Shown here one piece after another: positions 556 through 26,153 of a stretch of DNA of 64,000 nt. The first letter of the stretch is position 1. Each line of letters starts with the position of its first letter. The translations under genes and the position numbers were made by a program. A model generated the notes under the pieces. The model had not been told where the DNA came from. It ran no database searches and saw only the letters and a list, made by a program, of their open reading frames with translations. This DNA is from Prochlorococcus sp. MIT 0701 (GTDB lineage Bacteria > Cyanobacteriota > Cyanobacteriia > PCC-6307 > Cyanobiaceae), in the NCBI RefSeq assembly GCF_000760295.1, contig NZ_JNBA01000039.1, forward strand, positions 310,001 to 374,000. Direction: 5' to 3'.

Positions 556-1023
556 TTAGTCCTGGTTATTACATGCTGGCCGACCGCTGAGTTGAAGGGT
601 GTAGGAGTGAATGCAGTAACCAGTTTTGGCCTCGATTTGATCGAGCAAATCCTCAGGGAGTTCTATATCAAGGTCTGTGATATTGCCGGTCTCTATACAG
701 GTGAGATGGCTATGAGGATCGCTTCGGTAGCTGTATAGGCGACCATTGGCGCGATCGAGACATTCGATCAGTCCTGCTGATTGAAGTGCCTCCAGGTTCT
801 GATAAACGGATGTGTGACCAATAGACCGACCACAGGCGTTGAGCTTTTGAAAGATATCGCGAGCACTGAGATGAGTGGCTTCGCTCCAGAGGAGATCCAG
901 CACCATGCGCCGCTGACGGCTTAGTCGCATCCCGAGACGCCGGCAGCGTTCGAAGGCTCCCTGCACTCCATCTTCATCTCGCCCACCACTTGAGCCGCTG
1001 ATTTTGGGAGCGGTGTGCGTCAC
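556..1023 (-). CDS. Fur-family metalloregulator
   Basis: This 155-residue protein has the Fur layout: an N-terminal winged helix (RLSRQRRMVLDLLW, then HTSVYQNLEALQSAGLIE around residues 70-90) and a C-terminal dimerisation part with DPHSHLTC. Fur-family proteins repress genes when bound to Fe, Zn, Mn or after sensing peroxide. The usual second cysteine after HLxC is replaced (HLTCIET), and no CxxC pairs are present, so the structural zinc site of classical Fur is missing. That fits a divergent cyanobacterial PerR/Fur-like branch; which metal it senses cannot be told. It is an independent gene between the DUF3685 gene and hisA. Confidence 0.9.
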   Translation of the reverse strand: MTHTAPKISGSSGGRDEDGVQGAFERCRRLGMRLSRQRRMVLDLLWSEATHLSARDIFQKLNACGRSIGHTSVYQNLEALQSAGLIECLDRANGRLYSYRSDPHSHLTCIETGNITDLDIELPEDLLDQIEAKTGYCIHSYTLQLSGRPACNNQD

Positions 1024-18207: not shown

Positions 18208-18990
18208 TTGTCATCTATTGGAGTTGTTGTTGAATCAAAAATCTCTAGTAGGTGCTCAGGTCTATGTGATAGCAATGGATCTCGGAAAGATGCCACACAG
18301 ATCACCCTTGATTCTGCGAGCAACAGTTATGGCAATGAAGAGTTCCCTTTCCTCCTTCAACCATTACACAATGCGTCTTGTCCGAAAACAGTCAGTAGTC
18401 AACTGGAATCGCTGGAATCACTTCAACTCACAATAGGACAGAGCATTCTGCTGTCCTCTCCGACGCATCAATCTCGCTACGTGCGGCTGTCGTTTCAGCA
18501 GGGTATTGCCAGGCTTTCAGGGTCTTTCGGAGATCATTTTCCTGATATCACTTTGGCTTTTTGCGGTGATACTGAATCTAGTTGGCTTCGATTACCCGAC
18601 GGCAGTAACTTTTTGCTTGAGGCACTCACTAATAGTTCAATTGGCCTTCATTACGCAGACAACTGCCCAAAAGAGCAGGATCTCCTATGGGAGTGGCTGT
18701 TTGATTTTCATCTTGTCAGGCATCCGGTAGGAGCTGAAGCAAGGCTAGTTGCTCTTTTAAAGCTGCTCATTGGTCGCTTTGGCATCCGTAGAAGTGACGG
18801 TTATGAATTGCCCTTTCCACTTGGCCATGCCCGCATGGCCGAACTTATTGGGGCCACGCGCTCCACTGTTACGCGTCAGATCACCTTGTTTCGGAGCAAG
18901 AATGATCTTCAGCTGATTGAACCTGGCGGAACTTTTCTGCTCTCGGCACGACTTATCGAATCCACACCAGCTATGGATATACGCTTGTGA
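18208..18990 (+). CDS. Crp/Fnr-family transcriptional regulator
   Basis: Up to 260 residues from TTG 18208; the true start may be further in, since the first 60 residues are not family-like. The middle is a degenerate cyclic-nucleotide-type beta barrel (LTIGQSILLSSP, VRLSFQQGIARLSG). The C-terminus is a Crp helix-turn-helix: PLGHARMAELIGATRSTVTR. It is closest in style to picocyanobacterial NtcA-like paralogues. It overlaps the ABC ATPase gene by four bases, so both are one unit, and a perfect Crp site lies upstream. Regulation of iron genes is suggested by context only. Confidence 0.82.
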   Translation: MSSIGVVVESKISSRCSGLCDSNGSRKDATQITLDSASNSYGNEEFPFLLQPLHNASCPKTVSSQLESLESLQLTIGQSILLSSPTHQSRYVRLSFQQGIARLSGSFGDHFPDITLAFCGDTESSWLRLPDGSNFLLEALTNSSIGLHYADNCPKEQDLLWEWLFDFHLVRHPVGAEARLVALLKLLIGRFGIRRSDGYELPFPLGHARMAELIGATRSTVTRQITLFRSKNDLQLIEPGGTFLLSARLIESTPAMDIRL

Positions 18991-20048
18991 TTACTAACCA
19001 CTTGCAAATCAAGGGCGTCTGGCATCACTACGGTGATGGCTCAGCAGAGGGCTGGACACTGCAATCCATCAATATGAATCTCCAGCGAGGTGAGCTTGTT
19101 GGCCTATTGGGACCTTCGGGTTGTGGCAAAACAACCTTGCTTCGATTGATTGCTGGATTTGAAAAGCCTGTGCGAGGGACTATCTGCATCGATGGTCACG
19201 AGGTCGCAAGCTCAAGGAGCATGCTGCCGCCCGAGCGCAGAGGCATAGGCATGGTGTTTCAGGATTACGCCCTTTTCCCCCATCTCGATGCCTGGCGCAA
19301 TAGCTGTTTTGGTTTACGCCGCGGCCAAGACACCAGCAGAGCGCAATGGCTGCTTGAGATGCTTGGCCTAGCGGATCTTCGTCACCGTTATCCGCATCAG
19401 CTGTCTGGAGGCCAACGCCAACGATTGGCGCTGGCAAGAGCACTGGCACCAGAACCCTCACTCGTACTTCTTGATGAACCCTTTTCCAACCTTGATGTTG
19501 AGGTACGTCTGCGCTTGCGCAGCGAACTTTCAGGAGTTCTTCAAACATGTGGTGCCAGTGGTCTACTTGTGACACATGATCCTCAAGAAGCCCTGGCAAT
19601 CTGCGATCGGGTTGCAGTACTGCGTGATGGTGAACTCCATCAGTGCGCAACACCCAATGATCTTGTCCACAAACCAGCCACACCTTTTGTTGGTCGGTTT
19701 GTACTTCAAGGAAACCTGCTTCCTCTCAACATGGGTGGCGAGCATTGGCTGACGCCTGTTGGTCCTATCTCAAAACCCCAGGAGCCGAACGCCGCTAAGG
19801 CAACTGAGTTAATGGTCGATGATCAGGCACTGCAGATTCAGCAGGATCCCAGAGGCGAGGCTCTAATTCAAGGTCGGGAGTTTCTTGGTAGTCACTGGTT
19901 GTTGCGTGTGGAGCTTGGGAATCACATGTTGCGTGTACGGCAACCACTCGAACGTCCTGTCAAGACAGGTGATCGCTGCTTCGTCGCCTTTCGCGCTGGC
20001 CAAAAGGGCCTTCTTTTCCCCGGAGCGATTCCATGTCCACTCAGTTGA
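18987..20048 (+). CDS. futC: Iron(III)-type ABC transporter ATP-binding protein (FbpC/FutC)
   Basis: 353 residues, GTG start inside the previous gene's end. The ATPase domain has Walker A GPSGCGKTT, a Q-loop VFQDYALFPH, the signature LSGGQRQRLALARAL, Walker B LVLLDEPFSNLD and the switch VTHD. The last 100 residues form a TOBE-type regulatory domain. Organisation and sequence resemble FbpC/FutC/PotA-type importers. Iron is the likely substrate given the nearby ferritins and Pcb gene, but the permease and binding protein are not in this window, so the substrate is inferred. Confidence 0.85.
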   Translation: MITNHLQIKGVWHHYGDGSAEGWTLQSINMNLQRGELVGLLGPSGCGKTTLLRLIAGFEKPVRGTICIDGHEVASSRSMLPPERRGIGMVFQDYALFPHLDAWRNSCFGLRRGQDTSRAQWLLEMLGLADLRHRYPHQLSGGQRQRLALARALAPEPSLVLLDEPFSNLDVEVRLRLRSELSGVLQTCGASGLLVTHDPQEALAICDRVAVLRDGELHQCATPNDLVHKPATPFVGRFVLQGNLLPLNMGGEHWLTPVGPISKPQEPNAAKATELMVDDQALQIQQDPRGEALIQGREFLGSHWLLRVELGNHMLRVRQPLERPVKTGDRCFVAFRAGQKGLLFPGAIPCPLS

Positions 20049-20176
20049 GAAGAATGTTTAAACGCCATGACTTAGCTAGTCAGGCTCTCAAACCCTCAAC
20101 AGACATTAGACCTACAATCTTATGTTGATACAGCTATATTTGCAATCAACATGCCTGATTGCAAATGATTGGCTAA

Positions 20177-20314
20177 TCAGTCCCGGCTGCATACGCATTT
20201 TCCACCTTTCCACTTAGAGCACTTCCGCTTTTTGCAGGCTTTTTTCTTGCTTTGAACTGGACCATGGCGTCGCAGGCGACTGTCTGAAAAGTCATTCCCC
20301 AAGGACTTGGCCAT
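20177..20314 (-). CDS. Cysteine- and lysine-rich 45-residue small protein
   Basis: ATG 20314 to TGA 20177-20179. The N-terminal half is polar (MAKSLGNDFSDSRLRRHG); the C-terminal half is KKKACKKRKCSKWKGGKCVC followed by SRD, with four cysteines and many lysines, a pattern of defensin-like or metal-binding miniproteins. No signal peptide. A CAGG sequence five bases before ATG may serve as ribosome-binding site, and a Fur-box-like site begins 26 bases upstream. The ferritin gene diverges from it. A 76-codon frame overlaps the same stretch in another frame (20173-20403), but its composition is less protein-like. No known family recognised. Confidence 0.5.
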   Translation of the reverse strand: MAKSLGNDFSDSRLRRHGPVQSKKKACKKRKCSKWKGGKCVCSRD

Positions 20315-20340
20315 AACGACCTGCGGTCGACTCCGCAACT

Positions 20341-20359
20341 GAGATTGATTCTCATTCTA
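20341..20359. promoter_or_regulatory. Fur-box-like site
   Basis: GAGATTGATTCTCATTCTA matches 13 of 19 positions of the Fur consensus GATAATGATAATCATTATC. It lies between the divergent Cys-rich ORF (start 20314) and the ferritin (start 20496), closer to the former. Position and score fit iron-dependent control; binding is not shown. Confidence 0.5.
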
Positions 20360-20495
20360 CAGGGTCCATATCGCACCTGAAGAGATCTTTTCAAGATGTA
20401 CAAGGGCTTGTAGCATTCGCTACATCACTATCTGCACCTCAGATTGGCTGGTAATCCATCACCGCCACTTTGTGCAGACTCATCAAAACAAAATC

Positions 20496-21074
20496 ATGGC
20501 ATTCCCTACAAGTACGAAAGCTGTAGCCCTTACGACCGGTCCTGCAGGACGTGCAATAGCTCAATCGATGGAGGCTTCTCTGGTTGAGGCTCTCCATCAG
20601 CATCTAACCATGGAGCGAAATGCTAGCGCTGCTTACTTTGCTATCGCGATTTGGTTTGCTGAACGCGAGTTGCGTGGCTTTTCCCATTACTTCAAGCAAG
20701 AAGCTATTCAAGAACAGGAACATGCAGCCCATTTTGCCGATTACCTGATTGCTCGTGGACAAGCTGTTGTTCTACAGGATGTGCCTTCACCCCGTCAGGA
20801 ATGGATGTCTACAGATGAAATCATGGCTGCATCATTCCAGATGGAAGCAGACGTGACCACCTCACTTCATCAGCTTTATGCAATGGCTGAGCGAGCTTCT
20901 GATATGCGGACCACAGTTTTCCTTGACCCACTTGTCGATAATCAAGTCAACTCTGAAAATGAGCTTGCTCACCTCTTAGGGCGTGTACGCTTTGCCCAGG
21001 ATCAGCCCTCTGCAATGTTGATAATTGACGGCGAACTTAGTGATGGCAAGCATTCGCCTGCGAAGTTGGCCTAG
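20496..21074 (+). CDS. Ferritin (SynFtn-like)
   Basis: 192 residues from ATG 20496; GTG 20472 would add eight. Four-helix iron-storage protein forming a 24-subunit shell. The ferroxidase ligands are visible: Glu in TMERNASAAYF, Glu and ExxH in FKQEAIQEQEHAAHF, Glu in QMEADVTTSL and NQVNSENEL in the last helix. The order and spacing closely follow Synechococcus SynFtn. It stores iron in a mineral core and limits oxidative damage. The divergent partner is the Cys-rich ORF, with a Fur-like site between. Confidence 0.93.
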   Translation: MAFPTSTKAVALTTGPAGRAIAQSMEASLVEALHQHLTMERNASAAYFAIAIWFAERELRGFSHYFKQEAIQEQEHAAHFADYLIARGQAVVLQDVPSPRQEWMSTDEIMAASFQMEADVTTSLHQLYAMAERASDMRTTVFLDPLVDNQVNSENELAHLLGRVRFAQDQPSAMLIIDGELSDGKHSPAKLA

Positions 21075-21190: not shown

Positions 21191-21463
21191 TTATAACGCT
21201 AGTGGTCTGCTGCTGATCTCAATTAGAAATGCAATAGAGAGTTTATCTTCGATACCTTTACTTTGCATGTCTTTTGCTGTTTCGAGTAATACAATGCGTC
21301 GATTGCTTAGCTGTTGAAATTCTCTTTTTAGACGGCAAGAGAGGCTTTCATCATTACATTTGGCCATCGCCTCCAGCAAAGATCTGCAGCGATGGCGGAT
21401 CCCATCAACCTCTCTGCACAGACTGCCGATGACGGTGTCTGAAGTCGTAACTAAGTCTTTCAT
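21191..21463 (-). CDS. Small conserved helical protein beside a Crp-like gene
   Basis: 90 residues, predicted all-helical: TTSDTVIGSLCREVDGIRH and FQQLSNRRIVLLETAKDMQ. No known domain. It begins 13 bases after the stop of the Crp-like gene 21477-22070 in the same direction, so the two are almost certainly cotranscribed and may be functionally linked. Function unknown. Confidence 0.65.
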   Translation of the reverse strand: MKDLVTTSDTVIGSLCREVDGIRHRCRSLLEAMAKCNDESLSCRLKREFQQLSNRRIVLLETAKDMQSKGIEDKLSIAFLIEISSRPLAL

Positions 21464-21476
21464 TTGCGTACAAGTA

Positions 21477-22070
21477 TCAGGCGGCCAGAGGCGCTGATTC
21501 GATTAAGGCTGGAGACAAACGCAAGATGGGCTCTCCGCTGGGAACATTTAAAAGATCAGCGGTCCGTAGTCTGGAGATCAATCGCGTGGAGGTCACACGC
21601 GTGGAGCCGATCAGTTCGCCGATTCGCTCATGGGTGAGTCGGAATGGGAGATCACACCATTCGCCGCAGCGTCTTCCTAAACGGTTAACAAGCAGGGCAA
21701 ACAACGCTTGGAGACGTTGTTCTGCATTGCCCAAGTGTCGTATCCGAAGCAACTGCAGGGTCCATTCGTTCACGGCATCAAAGTCATGCCCATCACGGAT
21801 TTCTGCATCGCTACGAAAACATAGTGGCGTAAGCGCTTCGACACAGACCCCTTCGCTGCACAAGCGGTCGGTGCGTAGTTGATCGCCTTCCTGAAGAAAA
21901 GCGAGAGTCATCCCTTCAGTCTCTTCGCATGGGCAGTAAACGCGGGCTATGCCCTCAACGACTTCTATACACGCGCCACCTGATCGGGCGGCTGGATCGA
22001 TCAGGATGGATTGCCCTGTTGGCATCCGCACTGCTGGTATTGGATCATCGGGGAGGAATCGGAAGCTCAT
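21477..22070 (-). CDS. Second Crp/Fnr-family regulator
   Basis: 197 residues. The N-terminal beta barrel is short and degenerate (GQSILIDPA, ACIEVVEGIARVYCPC), the dimer helix is NAEQRLQALFALLVNRLG, and the helix-turn-helix is LTHERIGELIGSTRVTSTR. It shares its layout with the regulator at 18208-18990, so the two are probably paralogues. There are clustered cysteines (VYCPCEE, LCSEGVCVE) that could sense redox state or bind a cluster; this is speculation. It heads a two-gene unit with the 90-residue protein. Confidence 0.85.
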   Translation of the reverse strand: MSFRFLPDDPIPAVRMPTGQSILIDPAARSGGACIEVVEGIARVYCPCEETEGMTLAFLQEGDQLRTDRLCSEGVCVEALTPLCFRSDAEIRDGHDFDAVNEWTLQLLRIRHLGNAEQRLQALFALLVNRLGRRCGEWCDLPFRLTHERIGELIGSTRVTSTRLISRLRTADLLNVPSGEPILRLSPALIESAPLAA

Positions 22071-23487: not shown

Positions 23488-24597
23488 TTATGTGGCGTTG
23501 TCGGTCGATGTTGACGGCATGGACGTAGTTTCACCTGGATTCAAGCTGATTTCATTACTTTCTAATTGATCAAACAATTTCTCAACACGCTTGAAGTCAA
23601 AACCCATCGCTCTCAATCCATGCCAGAGATGACCTTGAAGATAGAAGAAGCCAAGGTAGAAATGGAAGTTGGACAGCCATGCTCGAGCGGAATGTACATC
23701 TGCTCCTCCAAAGAGAGGATCTGTATCAGAAAAATATGGTGCGAAGCTCAATTCAATATTGAGAGGACCACCATAAAGCTCTGTTGGATAAATTGTCGTG
23801 TTCATAGACGCCCAGAAGGCTGCTACAAAGGCTATGTAAGCAGCACCTGCCAATGATGTTGAAAGAACAAACTCTGCTGATAGAAGCCCTTTACCCTTGA
23901 ATTCTGTATATTCACCAAATGGCTTACTAAAGATATGCCATATAGCTCCTGCACTCAGGAAGAAAGCCAAGAAGGCGTGCCCGCCCATAACATCTTCCAA
24001 GCTATTGACGGTAAGCCAATCAATTTGGTGGTTCCATACCATTTGCAAGTCAAGGTTGTATTCAACCTTGCGTACTGCTCCCAGTGCTGGATCATAGATT
24101 CCGTGGTATTTAGCCCATTCAACAAATTGAACACAGCCAAGACCAAGGAATAACAGGTGATGTCCAAGGATGAAGGTGAGTCTGTCAGGATCCCCCCAGC
24201 TGAAATCGAATTTGTTAGGTCTGGAGTCTTTCGGGTACTCACCGAGATCCTCCTTGTATCTAAAGGAGTGAAGCATCGCCCCACCGGCATACACGGCTGA
24301 GAAAATCAGGTGTAAGACTGCGACTACAAGCATTCCGTAGGAATCAGTAATCACGCCGTTCTCTATTCCACCAATTCCAAGTCCCGCTAAATGCGGAAGG
24401 CTTACAAGGCCTTGATCACCGATGGGTAATGCGGAATCGTAACGGGCTAGCTCAAATAGGGTGTTGGCACCAGCACCGAAGCAAATCAATCCTGTATGGC
24501 CGATATGAGAGGCAATGAATCTGCCTGAGCGGTTGGTCACTCCACTGTTACCCGCGTACCACGCGTAGGTAACGTTGGATTTCCCGTAGGTTTGCAC
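23488..24597 (-). CDS. pcb: Pcb/IsiA-type chlorophyll-binding antenna protein
   Basis: Six-span light-harvesting protein of the CP43-like family, found in Prochlorococcus thylakoids. From GTG 24597 the protein (369 residues) starts with QTYGKSNVTYAWYAGNSGV, like other Pcb proteins; reading from 24687 would add 30 non-homologous residues. NRSGRFIASHIGHTGLICF, GHHLLFLGLG, DVMGGHAFLAFF and FHFYLGFFYLQGHLWH carry the chlorophyll-ligand histidines. In MIT9313 one of two Pcbs (PcbB) is iron-stress-induced and serves PSI; the ferritin and Crp-like neighbours suggest this is that type, but the sequence alone does not prove it. A 16-base palindrome lies upstream. Confidence 0.9.
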   Translation of the reverse strand: MQTYGKSNVTYAWYAGNSGVTNRSGRFIASHIGHTGLICFGAGANTLFELARYDSALPIGDQGLVSLPHLAGLGIGGIENGVITDSYGMLVVAVLHLIFSAVYAGGAMLHSFRYKEDLGEYPKDSRPNKFDFSWGDPDRLTFILGHHLLFLGLGCVQFVEWAKYHGIYDPALGAVRKVEYNLDLQMVWNHQIDWLTVNSLEDVMGGHAFLAFFLSAGAIWHIFSKPFGEYTEFKGKGLLSAEFVLSTSLAGAAYIAFVAAFWASMNTTIYPTELYGGPLNIELSFAPYFSDTDPLFGGADVHSARAWLSNFHFYLGFFYLQGHLWHGLRAMGFDFKRVEKLFDQLESNEISLNPGETTSMPSTSTDNAT

Positions 24598-24652
24598 GAG
24601 AATGAACTTGTTAAGGGCTATAGAAATATATTTGCACCATGGTAGTTCGACA

Positions 24653-24668
24653 TTCTGTGTACACAGAA
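24653..24668. promoter_or_regulatory. Perfect 16-base palindrome upstream of pcb
   Basis: TTCTGTGTACACAGAA is fully self-complementary. It lies 55 bases before the pcb GTG start, a good place for an operator. The inner TGTG...CACA resembles a Crp half-site pair but without the usual spacer. Which regulator binds is unknown. Confidence 0.55.
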
Positions 24669-24724
24669 CTCTACATATTGAAGGCAATTAAGTGTGATTT
24701 AGACATCAAAATGTGCCGTAGTAA

Positions 24725-25619: not shown

Positions 25620-26153
25620 TTAATTCTCGGATTGTCTTAATCCAGTGAGACCACCTTTGACAGTTGTCAAGGCTGTTCCATCAAGGAACTGTTGATCTAA
25701 AAGAAGTAGAGCCGCTGTGTTGTCACCAGCCAGGCGAAGGCGCTTACGAACAAAGCGTGCTTCCGCTTCCTCTTGTAACTGTTCGGCAATGAACCAATCG
25801 AGCATGGCGGTCGCACTACGCTCACCAGCTTGTTCGGCAATGGAATAAATGCGATTGATTGATGCTGTTACATCTTTTTCCAGGTCATAGACCTGATCAA
25901 AGAGATCCTGGGTGGATCCCCAGTTGCGTTGTGGTGCTTCAACAGCGGGGAGCTCCACCTGTTCATCGCAATCGACAAGATAGGCAATAAGTCGATCTGC
26001 ATGACCACGTTCCTCTTGGCTCTTAATTTGCATGTATGAGGAAAATCCAGCTAAATCCTTCTCGCGAAGCCATATTGACATGGCTAGGTAGGTATGACTT
26101 GCCTGAAACTCACAAGCCAAATGACAATTGATCGCCTTGGTTAGGTCATTCAT
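25620..26153 (-). CDS. Ferritin, second copy
   Basis: 177 residues. Ferroxidase ligands are visible in helix A (CEFQASHTYLAM), helix B (QIKSQEERGHADRLIAYL; ExxH), helix C (YDLEKDVTASI) and helix D (WFIAEQLQEEAEARF). It is shorter at the N-terminus and clearly different from the ferritin at 20496-21074, closer to general bacterial ferritin FtnA. Two ferritins with distinct sequences may divide storage and detoxification. No Fur-like site was seen upstream. Confidence 0.93.
   Translation of the reverse strand: MNDLTKAINCHLACEFQASHTYLAMSIWLREKDLAGFSSYMQIKSQEERGHADRLIAYLVDCDEQVELPAVEAPQRNWGSTQDLFDQVYDLEKDVTASINRIYSIAEQAGERSATAMLDWFIAEQLQEEAEARFVRKRLRLAGDNTAALLLLDQQFLDGTALTTVKGGLTGLRQSEN

Follow-up and report, generated by a model that had tools for sequence, protein, structure and literature searches.

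Organisation of the locus

The window, by which we mean the whole 64,000-nucleotide stretch of DNA analysed here, encodes on its minus strand (20177–20314) a 45-residue miniprotein with the sequence MAKSLGNDFSDSRLRRHGPVQSKKKACKKRKCSKWKGGKCVCSRD. Re-translation returned the coordinates, the sequence and the four cysteines that had been reported for this open reading frame in the original prediction. The cysteines fall in a core spanning residues 23–42, which reads K-K-K-x-C-x4-C-x7-C-x-C, and the protein has a computed pI of 10.4 and a net charge of +12. An alternative in-frame TTG at 20338 would extend it to 53 residues; the methionine encoded by the ATG at 20314 is shared by 90% or more of the 63 relatives that were aligned. 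In public genome annotations the reading frame may often stand as a hypothetical protein.

Divergent from the miniprotein gene lies a ferritin gene (20499–21074, plus strand) encoding a 24-mer ferritin of the SynFtn type. Its identity as a ferritin, also claimed previously, was confirmed by a match to PF00210 and by the PDB, in which chains 7pf9 and 5ouw are the nearest structures (E about 1e-59). The two start codons are 184 bases apart, and an alternative in-frame GTG start of the ferritin is found at 20472. On the other side, a FutC-like ABC-transporter ATPase gene (18987–20048, plus strand), recognised by PF00005, TOBE_2 and synteny, converges on the miniprotein gene; its family and context suggest that the ATPase serves iron(III) uptake. 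An 11-bp inverted repeat (20138–20166), read from the sequence, occupies the space between the two convergent stop codons and is probably a hairpin or terminator. The RNA fold of positions 20040–20180 on the minus strand gave a z-score of –4.3, and a terminator scan was negative. The only RNA families detected in the window were two tRNAs, and the miniprotein reading frame had no Rfam match.

Several further genes of the neighbourhood deserve mention. Two different Crp-family regulators are encoded on either side of the futC/miniprotein/ferritin cluster, one at 18208–18990 (plus strand) and the other, CrpA (PF13545/PF00325, synteny), at 21477–22070 (minus strand), near the ferritin gene. A 90-residue protein without a Pfam match is encoded at 21191–21463 (minus strand), in the gap separating ferritin from the Crp regulator. 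It occupies this position in most loci where ferritin is adjacent, is 30–50% identical in other genera, and constitutes a further unnamed member of the iron cluster. Another 24-mer ferritin, different in type from SynFtn, is encoded at 25620–26153 (minus strand); in some relatives a gene of this second type adjoins the miniprotein gene in place of the SynFtn type. Near both ferritins is a gene for an IsiA/Pcb-like chlorophyll-binding protein (23488–24687, minus strand), an arrangement common to several Prochlorococcus relatives.

Conservation and selection

A search with the single window sequence matched the miniprotein in four of five genomes of the same genus; for the Cyanobiaceae (Prochlorococcus, Synechococcus and Cyanobium) as a whole the tally was 295 of 400 genomes, representing 50 of 59 genera. 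With a profile, it was detected in 185 of the 222 near-complete (at least 95% complete) genomes of the family. No relative was found in 255 sampled genomes from other families of the class, nor in the phages and viral contigs searched. The 49 named loci that carry the gene belong exclusively to picocyanobacteria or cyanobacterial MAGs; their hosts include Prochlorococcus, Synechococcus, Cyanobium and Ca. Synechococcus spongiarum. The nearest named record, from Prochlorococcus sp. AG-412-I05, is 91% identical to the window protein, and the window may come from a low-light Prochlorococcus.

Alignment of 63 diverse relatives revealed that C27, K31, C32, S33, W35, K36, G37, C40 and C42 are invariant, with M1, K23–K25 and G38 nearly so. 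This yields a nearly invariant core, KKKxCKxxKCSxWKGGxCxC, that contains no conserved histidine, preceded by an N-terminal half that varies in both sequence and length. Every relative checked is strongly basic (pI 9.2–11.7). The original prediction was to fall if the cysteines or the frame were not conserved; both are conserved in the relatives. For most pairs, dN/dS lies at 0.05–0.26, with synonymous exceeding non-synonymous change, and values of 0.34–0.60 occur in three very close Prochlorococcus-type pairs that differ by few changes. Judged from these alignments, the gene is under purifying selection, and we regard it as practically certain that it encodes a real, conserved protein.

An unusual form was observed in genus g56, where the miniprotein is cut to about 28 residues (MGDKKKKKKCKKKKCSAWKGGKCICHGQ in genome G059, contig L135, 1122–1211, minus strand) and its gene has moved out of the ferritin locus; a match is still found in 9 of the 12 genomes.

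Gene order in relatives

Of 90 distinct loci, 57 have ferritin as the closest gene that could be recognised to one side of the miniprotein gene. Fifty-one of the 90 show the arrangement of the window, with the miniprotein gene divergent from a SynFtn-type ferritin at a median distance of 183 bases. At other loci its neighbour in tail-to-tail orientation is either a ferritin of the second type (L017, L045, L051, L111 and L115) or a SynFtn-like gene (L061, L069 and L075). In Cyanobium-type genomes it is located just downstream of the Crp regulator, co-directional with it and convergent with futB, and ferritin is encoded far away. The distances can be considerable: in G092 ferritin maps to 963 kb and the miniprotein to 3,219 kb, and in G212 the miniprotein maps to 1,001 kb and ferritin to 1,085 kb. 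Of the genes tested for synteny, those for ferritins are the only metal-storage genes that keep a place next to the miniprotein gene.

The SynFtn-type ferritin itself has multiplied in genus g34, in which genomes G221, G270, G276, G282 and G294 (2.4–3.3 Mb) carry four to eight such genes. These copies are scattered over the chromosome, several with equal score and identity to the query.

Co-occurrence with ferritin

Across the 222 near-complete genomes, the miniprotein and a 24-mer ferritin are both present in 181 and both absent from 33 (phi 0.87). Four genomes have the miniprotein without a detected ferritin (G354, G314, G192 and G217) and four have ferritin without the miniprotein (G007, G145, G184 and G214); of the latter, G007 retains a degenerate miniprotein copy, KKRKNCTKKKYPAWKGGK, elsewhere in the genome. 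The association also holds in lineages in which the two genes lie apart. When presences were shuffled inside genera, a randomisation with no tree behind it, 62.3 joint presences (sd 2.0) were obtained against the 79 observed, a number that none of 200,000 shuffles reached. In the same genomes the miniprotein gave a phi of only 0.31 with CrpA and –0.01 with FutB. Co-occurrence with ferritin is thus not a property of the neighbourhood as a whole, and these values rule out the neighbours CrpA and FutB as its cause.

The 33 genomes with neither gene are spread over 13 genera, and in g51, g6, g45, g5, g48, g34 and g10 they stand beside genomes with both, indicating that joint loss has probably occurred repeatedly. 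Assembly gaps do not explain the double absence, since several of the genomes concerned (G048, G113, G161, G037 and G028) are single contigs; that of G387, with crpA at a contig end, is probably such a gap. Dps-like relatives of ferritin, classed as such by match length and because the ferritin query did not hit them, remain in double-absent genomes. The pattern suggests that it is the 24-mer ferritin, and not its Dps-like relatives, that matters for retention of the miniprotein. Taken together, we consider it likely that the miniprotein works with ferritin.

Operator and promoter

Upstream of the miniprotein gene lies an inverted repeat of the form TGAGA-N5-TCTCA (20340–20355; minus strand ATGAGAATCAATCTCA), a putative Fur-family operator whose Fur-type site extends to 20359. 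A Fur box had been predicted 26 bases before the ATG with a score of 13/19; the position holds, and on the minus strand the score against the E. coli Fur consensus is 14/19. Within three mismatches, the box at 20340 is the only match to ATGAGAATNATTCTCAT in the 64-kb window, and it is one of five places in the genome within two mismatches. As 0.56 matches would be expected by chance in 64 kb, the box is not significant in the window alone; what gives it weight is that relatives conserve it. At least 12 of its 16 positions are matched in 27 of 82 non-redundant 60-base upstream regions versus 0.4% of dinucleotide shuffles, with the operator beginning 24–45 bases before the miniprotein ATG.

In the window the operator overlaps a putative –10 element, TAGAAT (20354–20359, minus strand), read from the sequence and laid out in the same way in relatives. 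In many of these the hexamer is TATAAT; an example of operator and hexamer overlapping is TATAATGAGAATCAAACTCA in L114. A generic sigma-70 scan returned no full –35/–10 match. The overlap recurs across Prochlorococcus and in several lineages of Synechococcus. Cyanobium-type genomes, where the miniprotein gene follows crpA, lack the operator.

The site does not discriminate between Fur, Zur and PerR, because these regulators share a box type and the genome encodes three Fur-family proteins. Another of the best boxes in the genome is found between znuA- and znuC-like genes. The znuA/znuC genes of Synechococcus WH8102 offer a parallel, being repressed by way of a Zur box that overlaps the –10 element (PMC9337993). 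Identifying the regulator as Fur by comparison with an idiA/futA box failed, as the one idiA/futA-like gene examined in this genome has no comparable box. The link to ferritin makes iron control the likeliest reading of the operator sequence. One Fur-family gene (PF01475) is located at the window edge (589–933, minus strand), with a box-like sequence, GTGATAATGAATTCA, upstream of it.

Homology and structure searches

Searches of Pfam, NCBIfam and PHROGs placed the miniprotein in no family, and neither Pfam nor NCBIfam contained a zinc-binding or metallothionein family that matched it. Scanning the 63 relatives against Pfam with hmmscan at E-values up to 0.1 likewise revealed no Fe-S or Bfd family. 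Among solved structures, no PDB relative was found by profile or by Foldseek. The AlphaFold2 model is devoid of helices and of low confidence (mean pLDDT 65.5, pTM 0.29), being best around residues 31–45; low pLDDT is usual for a short peptide, and the modelled fold therefore says little, also as regards a Bfd fold. No mention of a small protein partner of SynFtn-type ferritin was found in the open-licence literature, and by the family and literature searches the miniprotein family is undescribed.

Comparison with known systems

The closest functional parallel is Bfd, a small [2Fe-2S] protein that is required for the removal of iron from bacterioferritin and whose gene is adjacent to bfr yet expressed differently from it (PMC7762939, PMC7760384). 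Bfd expression falls as Fur rises (PMC12363616). The miniprotein is likewise small, has four cysteines and is encoded beside the gene for an iron-storage cage. Its gene has a Fur-type promoter of its own, separate from that of the cage gene, and is retained for the most part in genomes that retain the cage; the action proposed for it would similarly be exerted on ferritin during iron starvation. There are clear differences at the molecular level. Bfd (Fer2_BFD) shows no sequence match to the miniprotein, which is shorter (about 28–51 residues), and its cysteine spacing is unlike C-x4-C-x7-C-x-C. Whereas Bfd serves bacterioferritin, the partner proposed for the miniprotein is a haem-free ferritin, and a cluster and electron transfer are only proposed. 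As sequence and structure searches detected no homology to Bfd, we speak of an analogy of role and not of membership.

The ferritin beside the miniprotein gene is of the described SynFtn type, a distinct class of picocyanobacterial ferritin (PMC7762939). The metallothioneins SmtA/BmtA resemble the miniprotein in being small, cysteine-containing and controlled by a Fur-family protein (Zur). However, the miniprotein has far fewer cysteines, matches no metallothionein family and is linked to ferritin rather than to zinc genes.

Proposed role

We propose that the miniprotein is a cytosolic, dedicated partner of picocyanobacterial 24-mer ferritins with a Bfd-like role in iron release, an explanation to which, as a whole, we assign a probability of about 0.5. 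When iron is plentiful, Fe-Fur would block the miniprotein promoter; under iron starvation the protein would be made, and its four cysteines would coordinate either a metal ion or a small Fe-S cluster. The basic miniprotein (net +12) could then dock on the acidic ferritin and help to mobilise the stored iron. The ferritin subunits have computed pI values of 5.1 and 4.7 and a net charge of –11 each, a contrast compatible with such docking. Binding of a metal or an Fe-S cluster, suggested by the conserved cysteines, is probable; that the protein acts in release rather than in loading or sensing is a tentative conclusion by analogy. The broadest formulation is more speculative still: these proteins of about 30–50 residues, specific to picocyanobacteria and found in nearly every ferritin-bearing Prochlorococcus, might form a four-cysteine family of reductase or electron-transfer partners that release iron from haem-free 24-mer ferritins, an independently evolved minimal counterpart of Bfd. 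Counted against the proposed explanation are the poor structural model and the absence of a PDB match, the lack of an Fe-S match in Pfam, a cysteine spacing unlike that of Bfd, the operator-less Cyanobium-type genomes, the eight discordant genomes, four of each kind, and a box type that would equally suit Zur or PerR, with a good box at znu-like genes and none comparable at the idiA/futA-like gene.

The same co-occurrence and charge complementarity, together with the four conserved cysteines, would be expected of an iron-loading or delivery chaperone whose cysteines supply ferritin, or the machinery of Fe-S assembly, with Fe2+ or some other metal rather than withdrawing iron from the cage. A Fur-type block in iron-replete cells would act in the wrong direction for this task, and the iron route into SynFtn is described as carboxylate-based, not thiol-based (PMC8743623), making loading an unlikely function. 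Slightly more unlikely still is that the miniprotein is a small zinc-stabilised regulator that binds nucleic acid or protein and tunes the expression of ferritin or fut when cells are starved of iron. Its high pI, its four cysteines, the nearly invariant W-K-G-G and the co-directional position just downstream of the Crp regulator in Cyanobium-type genomes would all suit a regulator, but the gene tracks ferritin and not CrpA or FutB, and it matches no known zinc-binding family.

The shared Fur/Zur box type, the second good box at the znu-like genes and the reported response of SynFtn to copper (PMC7762939) could instead point to a metallothionein-like buffer of zinc, copper or metals in general, governed by Zur or PerR and placed near ferritin on account of oxidative stress. 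We consider such a buffer improbable: the miniprotein has only four cysteines and no conserved histidine in its core, its gene is linked to two types of ferritin in a wide range of genera, and the genes tested for synteny include no further metal-storage gene that is conserved alongside. A chance or non-coding reading frame, its DNA kept as regulatory or RNA sequence, could be argued from its shortness and absence from Pfam and NCBIfam; it is refuted by amino-acid conservation across genera and the bias towards synonymous change, and the gene has also been relocated yet retained in other contexts and has no RNA-family match.

With respect to the original prediction, an iron-linked and possibly metal-binding protein behind a Fur-type operator is supported by the conservation of protein and operator and by the co-occurrence with ferritin, and a role as metal chaperone is possible. 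A defensin-like or secreted signal peptide, by contrast, does not fit: neither the window protein nor most of its relatives have a hydrophobic leader by eye, and the gene tracks a cytosolic iron store, not a transporter.

The proposal that the miniprotein helps ferritin to release iron bears on how haem-free bacterial ferritins return their iron and on why picocyanobacteria retain a distinct ferritin type. The miniprotein is small enough to be synthesised, so that the idea can be tested quickly. Clonable, and following ferritin in presence and loss among Prochlorococcus and Synechococcus, it would also give direct access to the way iron is stored by the commonest photosynthetic organisms of iron-poor seas.
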